Source: an uncultured Erysipelotrichaceae bacterium
GTDB lineage: Bacteria > Bacillota_I > Bacilli_A > RF39 > UBA660
Direction: 5' to 3'
Length of the DNA stretch: 35,176 nt
NCBI GenBank assembly: GCA_902797265.1
Contig: CADBSF010000050.1
Coordinates: forward strand, 1 to 35,176
Positions 16,573 through 23,172 of this stretch are shown here, one piece after another; the first letter of the stretch is position 1, and every line of letters begins with the position of its first letter. The notes below the pieces were generated by a model, which was not told the origin of the DNA, ran no database searches, and saw only the letters and a program-made list of their open reading frames with translations. The position numbers and the translations under genes were made by a program.

Positions 16573-17724
16573 ATGATAGGAGATAATATAGAAGAATTAT
16601 ACAAACGTTTAAGTAAAGCAAACCATTTAATGACTCAAGTAAGAAATAGAGAAGATCGAATGGCTCTTGCAAATTACATAGGAAATTTGTATACAACGAT
16701 AGGAAATGTATTAAATATTAAAGTAAAACCCAAGAAGAAACAAATATTTGGTTCTAAAGATGGCTATAAAAAATTTTATCGAGTATATGATTCTAAAGAA
16801 AATGAAATGTTAGATAATTTAATTAAATATAAAGAATTTCATAGTGAATTATTTTGCGATATTCTTTTTGATGTTAAAGAGATTATGAAAAGTATATGTG
16901 ATGAAGAAATAATTGAAGAAAATATTATTTCTGAAGATTCTTTTTATGAGATTTTTATGGGATTTATGAATTCTATTGGATTAGAAGAATTATTTATCAA
17001 ATTTCTAAAAGAAGGAAGAATTCATACAACAGTTTTAAAAGAGGGAGATACCTGCCTAGGATCCACTATTTATAATCCCTTAACCAAGGACTTAGATATT
17101 TCTATATCGAATTTTGACTATACGGTTATGTGCATGTCAACATTAGCCCATGAATTTGGTCATGTCTATGATTTAGATTCTTTGAACGAAGACAGTATCA
17201 CTTATAATCGTTACTTTTATCAGAGCTTTTTTGGAGAAATTTATTCTCGGTTATTTGAAAGATTATTTATTACTTATATGATAAAAAATAATATTTTAAA
17301 AGATCAAGTCAAGAATACAATATTTCAATTAGAATTGATGAATCATGATTATTTATTAGCTTCTTATATTCTTTCTTTATTACAAGATGAATATTTAAAG
17401 GATTCTTTATACTTATATATAGATAAAAAAAATTTAATTGATATGGTAAAATATCACTTCTACGAAAGTAGTGAAGTGATGGATTATTTATATGGAGTTC
17501 GATCTTTAAATGTAGGAGAAGATTTTACTTATGCGTATGGAGATATTGTTTCTATCTTTTTAAAAGAAAGTGTAGAAAAACATGGATTTTCTAATGTCTT
17601 GGTAAAAGAATTTAGTAGAATTCGTACAGAATTATTTACTCCAGATTTTTTAGAAAAGCATCATATGAATAGTGAAAATTATGTTAAGTTATATAAAAAA
17701 GAAGTAGGACTTTTGAAAAAATGA
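16573..17724 (+). CDS. HExxH metallopeptidase-like protein (M3-like)
   Basis: A 383-residue soluble protein. H193-E194-F-G-H197 in STLAHEFGHVYDLDS is a gluzincin zinc motif, and E222 in FFGEIYSRLFERL lies 25 residues after H197, where the third ligand of M3 oligopeptidases falls. The first 110 residues are helical and charged, and the C-terminal part is all-helical, which fits the M3 fold. M3 enzymes are usually near 600 residues, so this is a shortened or divergent member. It has no signal peptide, so it is likely cytoplasmic. Start ATG 16573 has GGGGGA 4 bases upstream. It has a strong promoter of its own, and its stop is immediately followed by the promoter of the hisS T-box leader. Substrate is unknown. 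Confidence 0.65.
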   Translation: MIGDNIEELYKRLSKANHLMTQVRNREDRMALANYIGNLYTTIGNVLNIKVKPKKKQIFGSKDGYKKFYRVYDSKENEMLDNLIKYKEFHSELFCDILFDVKEIMKSICDEEIIEENIISEDSFYEIFMGFMNSIGLEELFIKFLKEGRIHTTVLKEGDTCLGSTIYNPLTKDLDISISNFDYTVMCMSTLAHEFGHVYDLDSLNEDSITYNRYFYQSFFGEIYSRLFERLFITYMIKNNILKDQVKNTIFQLELMNHDYLLASYILSLLQDEYLKDSLYLYIDKKNLIDMVKYHFYESSEVMDYLYGVRSLNVGEDFTYAYGDIVSIFLKESVEKHGFSNVLVKEFSRIRTELFTPDFLEKHHMNSENYVKLYKKEVGLLKK

Positions 17725-17759: not shown

Positions 17760-17946
17760 ATCTTCTTGGGAAAGAGTATTATTTATGATTTAATGAGAGA
17801 GAGTATGGTTGGTGAAAATACTTTAAATGTAGATAAGAAGACATCCTATAAAAAAGAAGCGTGTTACTACGATATCAGTTTTTTAAGTAAAAAATAAGGT
17901 GGCACCGCGGATATTATTCGCCCTTTCTTGTGCTACCTTTTTATTT
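17760..17946 (+). promoter_or_regulatory. T-box riboswitch, histidine specifier
   Basis: Leader that senses uncharged tRNA-His and allows read-through into hisS-aspS. The T-box sequence AAGGTGGCACCGCGG is at 17896-17910, followed by the terminator whose arms are AAGGTGGCAC and GTGCTACCTT (17930-17939) plus a T-run. Stem I is visible: CTTCTT (17762-17767) pairs with AAGAAG near 17854-17859; AGTA near 17775 and GAAG near 17837 form the loop-E side; GAGAGAGTATGGTTGGTG (17795-17813) is the distal conserved region. The specifier loop after GAAGA contains CAT at 17842-17844, a histidine codon that agrees with the downstream gene. Stem assignment was by eye. Confidence 0.93.
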
Positions 17947-17959
17947 TAGGAGGGATACT

Positions 17960-19312
17960 ATGATACAAAGACAAAAAGGTTGTCATGATATTTATGGAAG
18001 GGAAGCTAAGGTATGGAAGTTTGTTGAGAGTGTAATTGATGCTTTAATGGAAAAATATCATTATAATTACATACGTACTCCATTATTCGAAGCTAGTGAG
18101 TTATTTCATAGAGGAGTAGGAGAGACTACCGATATTGTGACAAAAGAAAGTTATGATTTTGTTGATAAAGGTGGAAGAAATATTACTTTACGACCAGAAG
18201 GAACGGCAGGAGTAGTACGTAGTTTTATTGAGAATAAAATGTATGGAGATCCTAGTCAACCAGTAAAGGTTTATTATAATGGAACCATGTATCGTTATGA
18301 AAGACCACAAAGTGGAAGAGATAGAGAACTTACTCAATTTGGAGTAGAGATACTTGGTAGTGATGATCCTTTAAGTGATGCAGAAGTTATCTCTTTAGCA
18401 GTCAATCTTTATAAAATGCTTGGTTTAAAAGAGATTAAAGTAAATTTAAATAGTTTAGGAGATAAAGAATCTAGAATGGCTTATCGAGAAGCTTTAATTG
18501 ATTATTTTAAGCCTCATATTGATGAGTTTTGTGAAGATTGTAAAGTTCGTTTAGAAAAGAATCCTTTACGAATATTAGATTGTAAAGTGGATGCAGATAA
18601 TCCATTATTAAAGAATGCTCCAAAAACTTTAGATTATTTAAATGAGGAAAGTAGAGATCGTTTTGAAAAAGTACAGGAATATTTAGATATTATGCAAATA
18701 TCATATGAAATTAATCCTAGTATTGTTAGAGGACTTGATTATTATAACCATACAGTATTTGAGATTGAAGCTAAGGTTGAAGGTTTTGGTTCTAACAATG
18801 TACTTGGTGCAGGTGGTCGTTATAATGGATTAGTAGATCAATTAGATGGTCCTGAAACACCTTGTGTTGGTTTCGCAACAGGAATTGGTCGTCTTGTCAT
18901 GGCTTTGGAATTAGAACAAGTAAAATTACCAATTGTGGAAGATATTGATTTATTCTTGATGTATGTCAATGAAGAAGAAAAGAAATATGCAGCTTATCTT
19001 GCTCAAGAACTTAGAATGGCTGGATTTATTGTAGAAACAGAATATACAGGTAGAGGTTTAAAAGGACAATTTAAACAAGCTGATCGATATCATGCTAAAT
19101 TTACTTGTGTATTAAATAGTGAAGATTTAAATAATAATGAAGTTAAAATTAAAAATAATAAGACGAAGCAAGAAGATTTGATTAATTTAGATGTTATTAT
19201 TTATTATTTAGATGAAATGATTCATAGTATGGAAGATGATGAAGATTGTTGTGAATGTGGATGTCATCAAGAGGGAGAACATGAATGTCATTGTAAGAAG
19301 GAGGAAGAATAA
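17960..19312 (+). CDS. hisS: Histidyl-tRNA synthetase with Cys/His-rich tail
   Basis: Charges tRNA-His. Class II motifs are clear: motif 2 (GTMYRYERPQSGRDRELTQF), RPEGTAGVVRS, the HisA motif RGLDYYNHTVFE, GAGGRYNGLV, and motif 3 (GFATGIGRLVMALE). The anticodon-binding domain follows. Length is 450 residues. ATG 17960 has AGGAGGG 6 bases upstream; the in-frame GTG 17930 lies in the T-box terminator and is rejected. The last ~25 residues are unusual: acidic, then DCCECGCHQEGEHECHC with six Cys and three His, then KKEEE. This looks like a metal-binding tag and is not part of normal HisRS. aspS begins one base before the stop ends (TAATG), so the pair is translationally coupled under the T-box. 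Confidence 0.97.
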   Translation: MIQRQKGCHDIYGREAKVWKFVESVIDALMEKYHYNYIRTPLFEASELFHRGVGETTDIVTKESYDFVDKGGRNITLRPEGTAGVVRSFIENKMYGDPSQPVKVYYNGTMYRYERPQSGRDRELTQFGVEILGSDDPLSDAEVISLAVNLYKMLGLKEIKVNLNSLGDKESRMAYREALIDYFKPHIDEFCEDCKVRLEKNPLRILDCKVDADNPLLKNAPKTLDYLNEESRDRFEKVQEYLDIMQISYEINPSIVRGLDYYNHTVFEIEAKVEGFGSNNVLGAGGRYNGLVDQLDGPETPCVGFATGIGRLVMALELEQVKLPIVEDIDLFLMYVNEEEKKYAAYLAQELRMAGFIVETEYTGRGLKGQFKQADRYHAKFTCVLNSEDLNNNEVKIKNNKTKQEDLINLDVIIYYLDEMIHSMEDDEDCCECGCHQEGEHECHCKKEEE

Positions 19313-20631
19313 TGGAAAGATTATTTTTAGATGAATTAAAAAATCATTATGGAGAAGAAGTATGTGTTAGTGGTTTTGTTGATAATATTCGTAATTTACA
19401 ATGGGTACAATTTATTGTATTAAGAGATGAAGTAGGAAAAGTACAAATTACTATTGAAAAGAGCGAGGAAGCCAATAAAGAATTAGTAGAGATTGTAAAT
19501 CAATTAAGTGTTGAATCTACTATTACGGTTAAAGGTACTTTAATGGAAAATCCTAAGGTAAAAATGGGTGGTATGGAAATCATTCCGAAAGAGATAAAAG
19601 TGACTAGTGAAAATTTAGGAGAGTTACCATTTAATTATAAAGATATTACAACGGTTAACTTAGATACTAGACTTGATTATCGTTATATTGATTTAAGACG
19701 TGAAAATAATATTTTAATGTTTCAAGTTCAAAGTAGTTTTGTAGAATATATGAGAGAATATCTTTATCAAAATCGTTTTACAGAAATTCATACTCCTAAG
19801 TTTATTGGAGCAGCCAGTGAATCTGGTAGTGAAGTATTTGAAGTAAAATATTTTGATACAAAAGCCTATCTTGCTCAAAGTCCTCAATTTTATAAACAGA
19901 TGGCTTTAGCTGCAGGACTTGGAAGAGTCTTTGAAGTTGCACCTTGTTTCCGCGCAGAAAATTCAAATACTAGTAGACATGCTACAGAATTTACTTCTTT
20001 TGATGTAGAGTTTGCCTATATTCAAGATTATAATGATGTGATGGCTTTAGAAGAAGAAATGCTTACTTATGCTTTAGAAAAGGTAAAAGAAAAATATGGA
20101 GAAAAGATGAAAGAAGTATTTGATATGGATGTAGTTGTTCCTAAACTTCCTTTCCCAAAAATGAGACTTTCTGAAATCTATCAAGAATTAGAAGAAAGAT
20201 ATGATTATCATGTAGATGATTCAGAAAAGAATGATTTAACAACAGAGGCAGAGAGATTATGTTACAAATTAGCCAAAGATAAATTTGATTCAGAATTTTT
20301 ATTTGTTATTGACTTTCCTGCAGAGAAGAGAGCTTTTTATCATATGAGAGATGAAGAAGGAAAATTATTAGGATATGATTTAATTTGGAGAGGTGTTGAA
20401 ATTACAACAGGAGCTCAAAGAGAACATAGATATTCTGAAATAGTAAAGAATGCCAAAGAAAAAGGATTAGGAGAAGATGTTTCTTTCTACTTAGATTTCT
20501 TTAAACATGGATGTCCTCCTCATGGTGGATTTGCAATTGGAATTGATCGACTTACCATGTTATTACTAGGAGTTCCTAGTGTCAAGGAAGTACAATTCTT
20601 ATTTAGAGGACCAAATCGATTAACACCATAA
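19312..20631 (+). CDS. aspS: Aspartyl-tRNA synthetase, archaeal/eukaryotic type
   Basis: Charges tRNA-Asp, possibly also tRNA-Asn. 439 residues, against about 590 for the bacterial type, because the GAD insertion domain is absent. It has an N-terminal OB-fold anticodon domain (VSGFVDNIRNLQWVQFIVLR), then class II motif 1 (EIHTPKFIGAASESGSEVF), motif 2 (FEVAPCFRAENSNTSRHATE) and motif 3 (HGGFAIGIDRLTMLLLG). These match the archaeal AspRS layout (SPQFYKQM, GVEITTGAQREHR). Two residues after the OB-fold G-F, where discriminating archaeal enzymes have Trp, this protein has Asp, so it may be non-discriminating, which would require GatCAB. It occupies the normal bacterial hisS-aspS slot. The start codon overlaps the hisS stop. 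Confidence 0.93.
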   Translation: MERLFLDELKNHYGEEVCVSGFVDNIRNLQWVQFIVLRDEVGKVQITIEKSEEANKELVEIVNQLSVESTITVKGTLMENPKVKMGGMEIIPKEIKVTSENLGELPFNYKDITTVNLDTRLDYRYIDLRRENNILMFQVQSSFVEYMREYLYQNRFTEIHTPKFIGAASESGSEVFEVKYFDTKAYLAQSPQFYKQMALAAGLGRVFEVAPCFRAENSNTSRHATEFTSFDVEFAYIQDYNDVMALEEEMLTYALEKVKEKYGEKMKEVFDMDVVVPKLPFPKMRLSEIYQELEERYDYHVDDSEKNDLTTEAERLCYKLAKDKFDSEFLFVIDFPAEKRAFYHMRDEEGKLLGYDLIWRGVEITTGAQREHRYSEIVKNAKEKGLGEDVSFYLDFFKHGCPPHGGFAIGIDRLTMLLLGVPSVKEVQFLFRGPNRLTP

Positions 20632-20668: not shown

Positions 20669-20697
20669 TAAAATTTTCTTAGAATTGAGTGAAGAAA

Positions 20698-21264
20698 ATG
20701 AAGAAAAAGAAAAGAAAATTAAAAAGTGAAGATATTCTATTAAATTCTTCTGTAGAAATTAATCATACGATACAAAGAATTAAAAAACATGAAAAAAGAT
20801 ATACAACTATCTTAGTTATCTTTTTTTTAAGCATCTTTCTATTATTAGGTTATCGACTTATTATGATTGATTCTTCTGATGCTTCTACTATAATATATGG
20901 AGATGAAGTAGAAGGATTAGTATCACAAGGAGAGGTTATTTCATTAACAGATTCTTCTATTATGAGTGATACAGAAGGAAAGAAGAGCAATCCTTATACT
21001 TTTCGTGTTTCTAATCGTAATTTTCAAACAAGTAAATATCAAATTCTATTAAATATTGATGATTCTATTGATACTTCTCCTATTAGATATTCGATTGATG
21101 ATAAGGTATATAGTGTTATGGGAAATCATATTGTTCTTTTTTCTAATGAATTATTAGTTGGTGGAGATGAACGTACTTATCAAATTAGAGTATGGTTAGA
21201 TAAAAGTACTAAGAAACAAGATAATTTAATAAAAGGATATTTTAGCTTAACGGAAACCAAATAA
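20698..21264 (+). CDS. Membrane-anchored protein with TasA/SipW-substrate-like ectodomain
   Basis: A 188-residue protein. A Lys-rich cytoplasmic N-terminus of about 33 residues (KKKKRKLKSED) is followed by one membrane segment (TTILVIFFLSIFLLLGYRLI) and an extracellular beta-rich part. The end, TYQIRVWLDKSTKKQDNLIKG, resembles the closing strands of camelysin/TasA-type, SipW-processed proteins ('Y-x-h-x-WhD-x-S'). No clear signal-peptidase site follows the membrane segment, so it may stay anchored. ATG 20698 is preferred over GTG 20689 because GAGTGA is 5-6 bases upstream of it. It stands alone between two terminators. The family link is inferred from a short stretch, and the protein may act at the cell surface. 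Confidence 0.55.
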   Translation: MKKKKRKLKSEDILLNSSVEINHTIQRIKKHEKRYTTILVIFFLSIFLLLGYRLIMIDSSDASTIIYGDEVEGLVSQGEVISLTDSSIMSDTEGKKSNPYTFRVSNRNFQTSKYQILLNIDDSIDTSPIRYSIDDKVYSVMGNHIVLFSNELLVGGDERTYQIRVWLDKSTKKQDNLIKGYFSLTETK

Positions 21265-22086: not shown

Positions 22087-22116
22087 TTGTTAAGATGAAT
22101 CTAGATAGTGTATAAT
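22087..22116 (+). promoter_or_regulatory. Promoter of the structured RNA
   Basis: TTGTTA at 22087-22092, 18-base spacer, TATAAT at 22111-22116. The predicted start near 22123 coincides with the first base of the RNA's closing helix. Confidence 0.75.
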
Positions 22117-22122
22117 GAAATT

Positions 22123-22307
22123 GTCAGATAGATATGTTTTGGCACTTTTTAAAACCGACTAAAGTAACGATACGGGAGTTCGGATCGAGTCAACCGGTGT
22201 TGAATGCCTACATTTATGTAGGAATCCTAATGGTTGAGTATGAACACCCACCTGGTCAGAAGATTAGGTTTTATCGTTTGCTAAGATTATCTATTCTGAC
22301 TTTTTTT
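22123..22307 (+). ncRNA. Structured non-coding RNA, family not identified (raiA-motif or 6S candidate)
   Basis: A transcript of about 185 nt. A closing helix joins the ends (22123-22133 with 22289-22300, one bulge) and runs straight into a T-run, so it also serves as terminator. A second long helix pairs 22163-22172 with 22272-22282. Inside are hairpin CCTACA-TTTA-TGTAGG (22207-22222), TCAACC/GGTTGA (22190-22195/22232-22237) and GGTGTT/AACACC (22196-22201/22243-22248). The last two cross, as do further possible pairings, suggesting pseudoknots. The region is clearly richer in G+C than its surroundings, as expected of a stable RNA in an AT-rich genome. Size and end-pairing would fit 6S RNA, but the compact pseudoknotted core fits a raiA-motif-like RNA better. 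It lacks the SRP, RNase P and tmRNA signatures I know. Confidence 0.75.
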
Positions 22308-22308
22308 A

Positions 22309-22337
22309 TTGCTTTTCAAGTGCTTTTATAGTATAAT
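22309..22337 (+). promoter_or_regulatory. Promoter of the gene at 22357
   Basis: TTGCTT at 22309-22314, 17-base spacer, TATAAT at 22332-22337. It lies just after the terminator of the structured RNA, so the RNA is not a leader of this gene. Confidence 0.55.
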
Positions 22338-22356: not shown

Positions 22357-23172
22357 ATGCTAATATTACCGATTGTTAATAAGAAGAGAGTAATGAATGT
22401 AGAAGTAAAACTTAAGACAGCACAAAAGATTAGACGTGGTGTTTGTTTTGATGATGCCAAAGAAAGTGAGATTATTGTAAATCGTGCTAAGTTTTCAGAC
22501 TCTTCTTTTAAAAATTCTAGAGATGATATGGCTCCTATTGATTTTATTCGAAGTAAATCATTACTATATCCTAGAAGTTTTTTAGTGACGACGAAAGAGC
22601 ATGCCAATTCTAATTTATATGATGTTTATGAAGTTGCACCTCCACCTAAAAAAGTAAATGATAGTTTAGATTGTTTATATAGTAAAGCAATTATTGATTT
22701 AGTAAAAGAAATCCCAGGAACTGAAAAAAGAGGAAGATACCTTTCTTTTGAAAATTTAGGAATTGATAAACATTTAACAAATGATAAGATAGCTTCTTTA
22801 CAAAGAATTATTAAAGAAAATAGAGATTCTTCTGTATGGCCTAGATTATTTGAAGAAGCAGGAATTTCTGATTTAAGTGAAACTATTGATTTTATGAATA
22901 ATTTTGAATGTACGGTTTTATCAGATACTTCTATTTCTGAAGAATCATTAGAAGAAACATTAAAAGCATTATCTAATATTCATACGAGAGATTATCGTAA
23001 TTTAAATAAATACTATCAAATGGCTAAATCAAATACGGATATTTATACTAGAATTTCCTATATTCATAAAGTGTTATATGATAAGCCTTTAAATTTGATA
23101 CAAGCAAAAAAACAAGTTCCTAAGAGACTTGTTAAGAAAATGGAGGATGGAGAATACGGAAAAGCAGCCTAA
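22357..23172 (+). CDS. Hypothetical protein
   Basis: A 271-residue soluble protein starting MLILPIVNKKRVMNVE. I do not recognise it. It has no membrane segment and no evident catalytic motif. The Pro-rich stretch VYEVAPPPKKVN near residue 105 separates an N-terminal part from an all-helical, charged C-terminal part with several repeats of Leu/Ile-x-Asn/Lys. ATG 22357 is chosen over ATG 22351 because GAGGTG at 22345-22350 spaces correctly only to the former. The next gene, tcdA, begins inside its last 26 bases, so the two are probably co-transcribed. The position between aspS and tcdA is empty in Bacillus, which makes this an inserted, lineage-specific gene. Confidence 0.75.
   Translation: MLILPIVNKKRVMNVEVKLKTAQKIRRGVCFDDAKESEIIVNRAKFSDSSFKNSRDDMAPIDFIRSKSLLYPRSFLVTTKEHANSNLYDVYEVAPPPKKVNDSLDCLYSKAIIDLVKEIPGTEKRGRYLSFENLGIDKHLTNDKIASLQRIIKENRDSSVWPRLFEEAGISDLSETIDFMNNFECTVLSDTSISEESLEETLKALSNIHTRDYRNLNKYYQMAKSNTDIYTRISYIHKVLYDKPLNLIQAKKQVPKRLVKKMEDGEYGKAA

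Follow-up and report, generated by a model that had tools for sequence, protein, structure and literature searches.

In Bacillus subtilis, the gene of 6S-1 RNA (bsrA/ssrSA) lies downstream of aspS and near tcdA/yrvM, yrvM being the tcdA homologue. The RNA belongs to Rfam family RF00013 and has a central bubble, a 3′ bubble hairpin, a P2 template strand and a central bubble collapse helix, and the last of these was inferred from structure probing and mutants (PMC8876501). Small RNAs of the aspS–yrvM region of B. subtilis are documented (Suzuma 2002, as cited in PMC12005410), and these represent the 6S-1 locus. The 6S RNAs of lactic acid bacteria have an outer closing stem, a 5′ bulge, a 3′ hairpin and an apical stem, their predicted pRNA contains a conserved GG, and rarA and uspA usually flank their gene (PMC8414754). 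In the literature examined, our search on 6S RNA in Mollicutes returned nothing relevant.

Here we describe a structured RNA in a 35,176-nucleotide stretch of DNA (the window) from an uncultured Erysipelotrichaceae bacterium. It shares with 6S-1 the family, the genomic place and all four structural elements, and with the lactic acid bacterial RNAs the overall layout and the GG, whereas its gene lies between aspS and tcdA. A preliminary description had seen in it a free-standing RNA with possible multiple pseudoknots, of ribozyme-like organisation, and had named raiA-motif RNA as first candidate, 6S RNA as second and a new class as a further option. We conclude that the RNA is almost certainly an ordinary 6S RNA, encoded by a gut-type Bacilli genome of low G+C content at a place that corresponds to that of B. 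subtilis 6S-1 (bsrA).

Family assignment and genomic place

When the whole window was searched against all Rfam models, 6S RNA (RF00013) was the only match. It spans positions 22119–22305 of the forward strand and covers 187 of 187 model positions, with a score of 47.4 bits that exceeds the curated gathering cut-off of 46.4 bits by only 1 bit. Under permissive settings, the 601-base stretch around the RNA again returned 6S (E = 2e-8) and no other credible family; OmrA-B and the remaining Rfam families gave no credible match. A family-specific covariance model, R1, also matches the RNA, at 140.9 bits, a score that is partly so by construction because the window copy is among the 32 family sequences from which R1 was built. 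Across the family, the Rfam 6S model matches in at least 122 of 145 genomes, and R1 finds the RNA in 10 of 20 tested among the remaining genomes, one of these matches lying at the end of a contig and being partial. With a known, common RNA matched, the novelty suggested by the preliminary description is gone.

The neighbourhood points the same way. Upstream of the RNA lie relA, hisS and aspS, and downstream tcdA, lexA and polA; the order relA–hisS–aspS–6S–tcdA–lexA–polA recurs in other Bacilli genomes. Retrieval of loci by means of aspS, among relatives that are uncultured gut Bacilli, Erysipelotrichaceae and Tenericutes, yielded 23 other genomes, some of them possibly within the 145-genome set, in which a 6S match scoring 95–146 bits with R1 lies downstream of hisS–aspS on the same strand. 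Among the 23, tcdA was recognised 3′ of the 6S match in 18, and beyond it come lexA and polA as far as the sequence extends. Another 57 aspS loci, the majority more distant, had no 6S match in the stretch examined; in those genomes the RNA may lie elsewhere. A place near aspS and tcdA supports the assignment without strictly defining the family, and because it is the same chromosomal place as that of B. subtilis 6S-1, it argues for a normal gene rather than a new class.

Comparable size and a structured intergenic setting are all that speaks for a raiA-motif RNA. The raiA model gave zero matches in the 601-base stretch at E-values up to 10, a raiA gene is not among the identified neighbours, and the 6S model matches in full length an RNA whose rod covaries as in 6S (see below). 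We therefore regard raiA as refuted and its probability as vanishingly small; it was the second candidate, 6S, that held up on score, synteny and covariation alike.

Several other features of the neighbourhood were recorded. Unlike the B. subtilis locus, the window has an alpha/beta hydrolase gene between aspS and tcdA and, downstream of it, an unnamed gene (22357–23172, forward strand) for a conserved protein of 271 aa that belongs to no Pfam or NCBIfam family. The latter gene adjoins tcdA and in many relatives begins about 55 nt 3′ of the 6S gene. Two more forward-strand open reading frames have no Pfam or NCBIfam family: one at 16573–17724, and one at 20689–21264 that is weakly conserved (25–32%) and keeps its place after aspS. 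AspS itself (19312–20631, forward strand) matches PRK05159, an aspartate–tRNA(Asn) ligase type, at 475 bits, rather than the longer bacterial type. Upstream of hisS, a T-box leader (17760–17928, forward strand) scores 89.6 bits, just below the Rfam cut-off of 93, and the T-box leaders of the relatives L034, L036 and L037 exceed that cut-off.

Transcript, rod structure and covariation

The RNA is preceded by a sigma-A type promoter (22087–22116, forward strand) with a −35 element TTGTTA, an 18-nt spacer and a −10 element TATAAT, which predicts a transcription start near 22123. Among 110 homologues, 84 have a perfect TATAAT on their 5′ side, in most cases 2 nt ahead of the model start; shuffles predict about 13. 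The transcript probably runs from about 22123 to 22307, a length of about 185 nt. Its local G+C content is about 40%, compared with mostly 20–30% in the surroundings, and its folding energy of −58.1 kcal/mol compares with −39.1 kcal/mol for shuffled sequences (z = −4.67). An open reading frame that overlaps the RNA (22134–22331) has no Pfam family. Thus the earlier picture of a free-standing, G+C-rich structured RNA with its own promoter, starting at a helix that joins both ends, was borne out.

An RNAalifold consensus of 32 sequences gives the 6S rod: the 5′ bubble stays open between a closing stem and an apical arm, and the 3′ side of the bubble carries a hairpin. All elements lie on the forward strand. 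The closing stem (22123–22300) begins with GTCAGA (22123–22128) and ends with TCTGAC (22295–22300); as the positive control in a test against re-dealt partner strands it reached z = 24.5. The P2 helix TAAAACC/GGTTTTA (22150–22156 with 22267–22273) is nearly invariant with few compensated variants, so covariation says little on it. Between P2 and the apical arm lies the 5′ central bubble (22157–22173). The apical arm (22174–22249) comprises the GGG.GTTCG and TCAACC/GGTTGA helices and a terminal stem-loop, and the 3′ bubble hairpin ACCTGGTC/GATTAGGT (22250–22269) scores z = 9.7 against re-dealt partners. The conserved CCCACCT and GGGA blocks also agree with 6S.

Compensatory changes on both sides, each in at least one sequence, occur in 26 of the 35 predicted pairs of the 32-member alignment, and projection of the Rfam structure onto this alignment yields a covariation of 0.354, compared with 0.172 when shuffled and 0.09–0.12 when slid.

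The crossing pairings proposed at the outset fared unequally. AAAACC/GGTTTT, which is P2, and TCAACC/GGTTGA are real 6S helices, and the second covaries strongly (0.888 versus 0.256 shuffled, 0 of 500 shuffles). By contrast, CCTAAT/ATTAGG behaves as a chance pairing, as 150 of 500 shuffles of the 32 homologues pair as well and three of its six pairs are present in just 7 to 13 of the 32 sequences. GGTGTT/AACACC has no two-sided change and no association (412 of 500 shuffles), and is unsupported as a competing helix, its 3′ columns varying with partners in the apical arm. With both pairings unconfirmed, multiple pseudoknots are unsupported.

Central bubble collapse helix and predicted cycle

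The covarying alternative helix was absent from the pairings first proposed. It is AACGATA/TATCGTT (22166–22172 with 22272–22278, forward strand), and its equivalent in B. subtilis 6S-1 is known as the central bubble collapse helix. In 103 homologues its own strands pair at 15.04, versus 12.39 for re-dealt strands (sd 0.22, z = 12.0, 0 of 2000 permutations), and the signal is also seen in sequences without the common core (12.84 versus 10.04). In the latter sequences, variant helices such as AGTGAT/ATCACT, TTGGATA/TATCCAA and AAGATAA/TTATCTT occur. The permutation test removes relatedness incompletely, and silent comparison segments serve as the guard: of five neighbouring segments, four, without a known partner, gave no positive signal in the same test. 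The fifth, the pre-P2 strand on the outer strand of the rod, scored high too; it is an unclean negative control, since its real partner lies in the same region of the rod.

A new pseudoknotted, ribozyme-like class that merely resembles 6S could draw on the marginal Rfam score and on one crossing helix that covaries, yet that helix is the counterpart of the refolding helix known for 6S-1 (PMC8876501), and the rod, the conserved blocks and the location agree with 6S. Together with the RF00013 match, this leaves such a class unsupported and, in our estimate, extremely improbable.

For the 6S RNA, the collapse helix crosses P2, so the two are mutually exclusive unless they form a pseudoknot. The minimum-energy fold contains the collapse helix (−58.1 kcal/mol) and the P2 form lies at −55.1 kcal/mol. 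The energy model thus favours the collapse helix even when the RNA is free, against the standard 6S picture, in which the free form of B. subtilis 6S-1 is described as containing P2. A tentative and rather unlikely suggestion is that in this gut Bacilli family the conserved, covarying collapse helix may form already in the free RNA, or may form an H-type pseudoknot with P2.

By analogy with studied 6S RNAs, family membership suggests that the RNA mimics a promoter, sequesters polymerase, serves as template for a pRNA and then refolds. Made from the housekeeping promoter in front of it, the transcript of about 185 nt would fold as a rod, interrupted by a central bubble, that imitates an open promoter, and as growth stalls it would occupy the holoenzyme of RNA polymerase and main sigma factor. 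Once nucleotides are back, the polymerase would copy the 5′ bubble into a short predicted pRNA, 5′-(A)GUCGGUUUUAAAAAG. Its start, judged by the position pattern of the GG in predicted pRNAs (PMC8414754), would be C22159 (GG at 4/5), which is invariant in 32 of 32 sequences, or U22160 (GG at 5/6, beside a conserved A). Synthesis of the pRNA is predicted to open P2, upon which the collapse helix would form and the polymerase would be released.

Second 6S copy and meaning of the finding

The same genome has a second, diverged 6S copy on contig C64 (G000:C64:28772–28956, reverse strand, locus L001), between rpsR and a DHH-domain gene. As a second paralogue with a less structured central bubble it appears to resemble B. 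subtilis 6S-2, and unlike 6S-2 it stands between rpsR and the DHH gene. Another species of the genus (G013) has both copies at the same two sites; the C64 copy is 80% identical to that species' same-site copy and 72% to the window copy. Overall, C64-type copies, in which the collapse helix is weak, are about 65–73% identical to aspS-type copies. A further family member (G025) has two 6S copies in other surroundings (G025:C27:34862–35040 and G025:C48:550–731).

The C64 copy scores 50.7 bits with the Rfam model, slightly above the window copy, as would suit a reading in which the window copy is a diverged, non-working pseudogene and the C64 copy is functional. With R1, however, the window copy scores better (140.9 versus 107.6 bits, both being in the training set). 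It also retains the promoter, P2 and the collapse helix, it occupies the widely shared site, and both copies are retained in the congener. We consider a pseudogene very improbable and take the window copy as a normal 6S gene.

The 6S identity closes the finding, and a new RNA class is unnecessary. The two copies clearly illustrate that a genus can retain a second 6S RNA whose collapse helix is weak. As a by-product, about 100 sequences lend comparative support to the collapse helix, for which the evidence in B. subtilis 6S-1 is structure probing and mutants. If the helix does form in the free RNA, 6S RNA of this family would be a two-state switch in its ground state, and not merely after pRNA synthesis.
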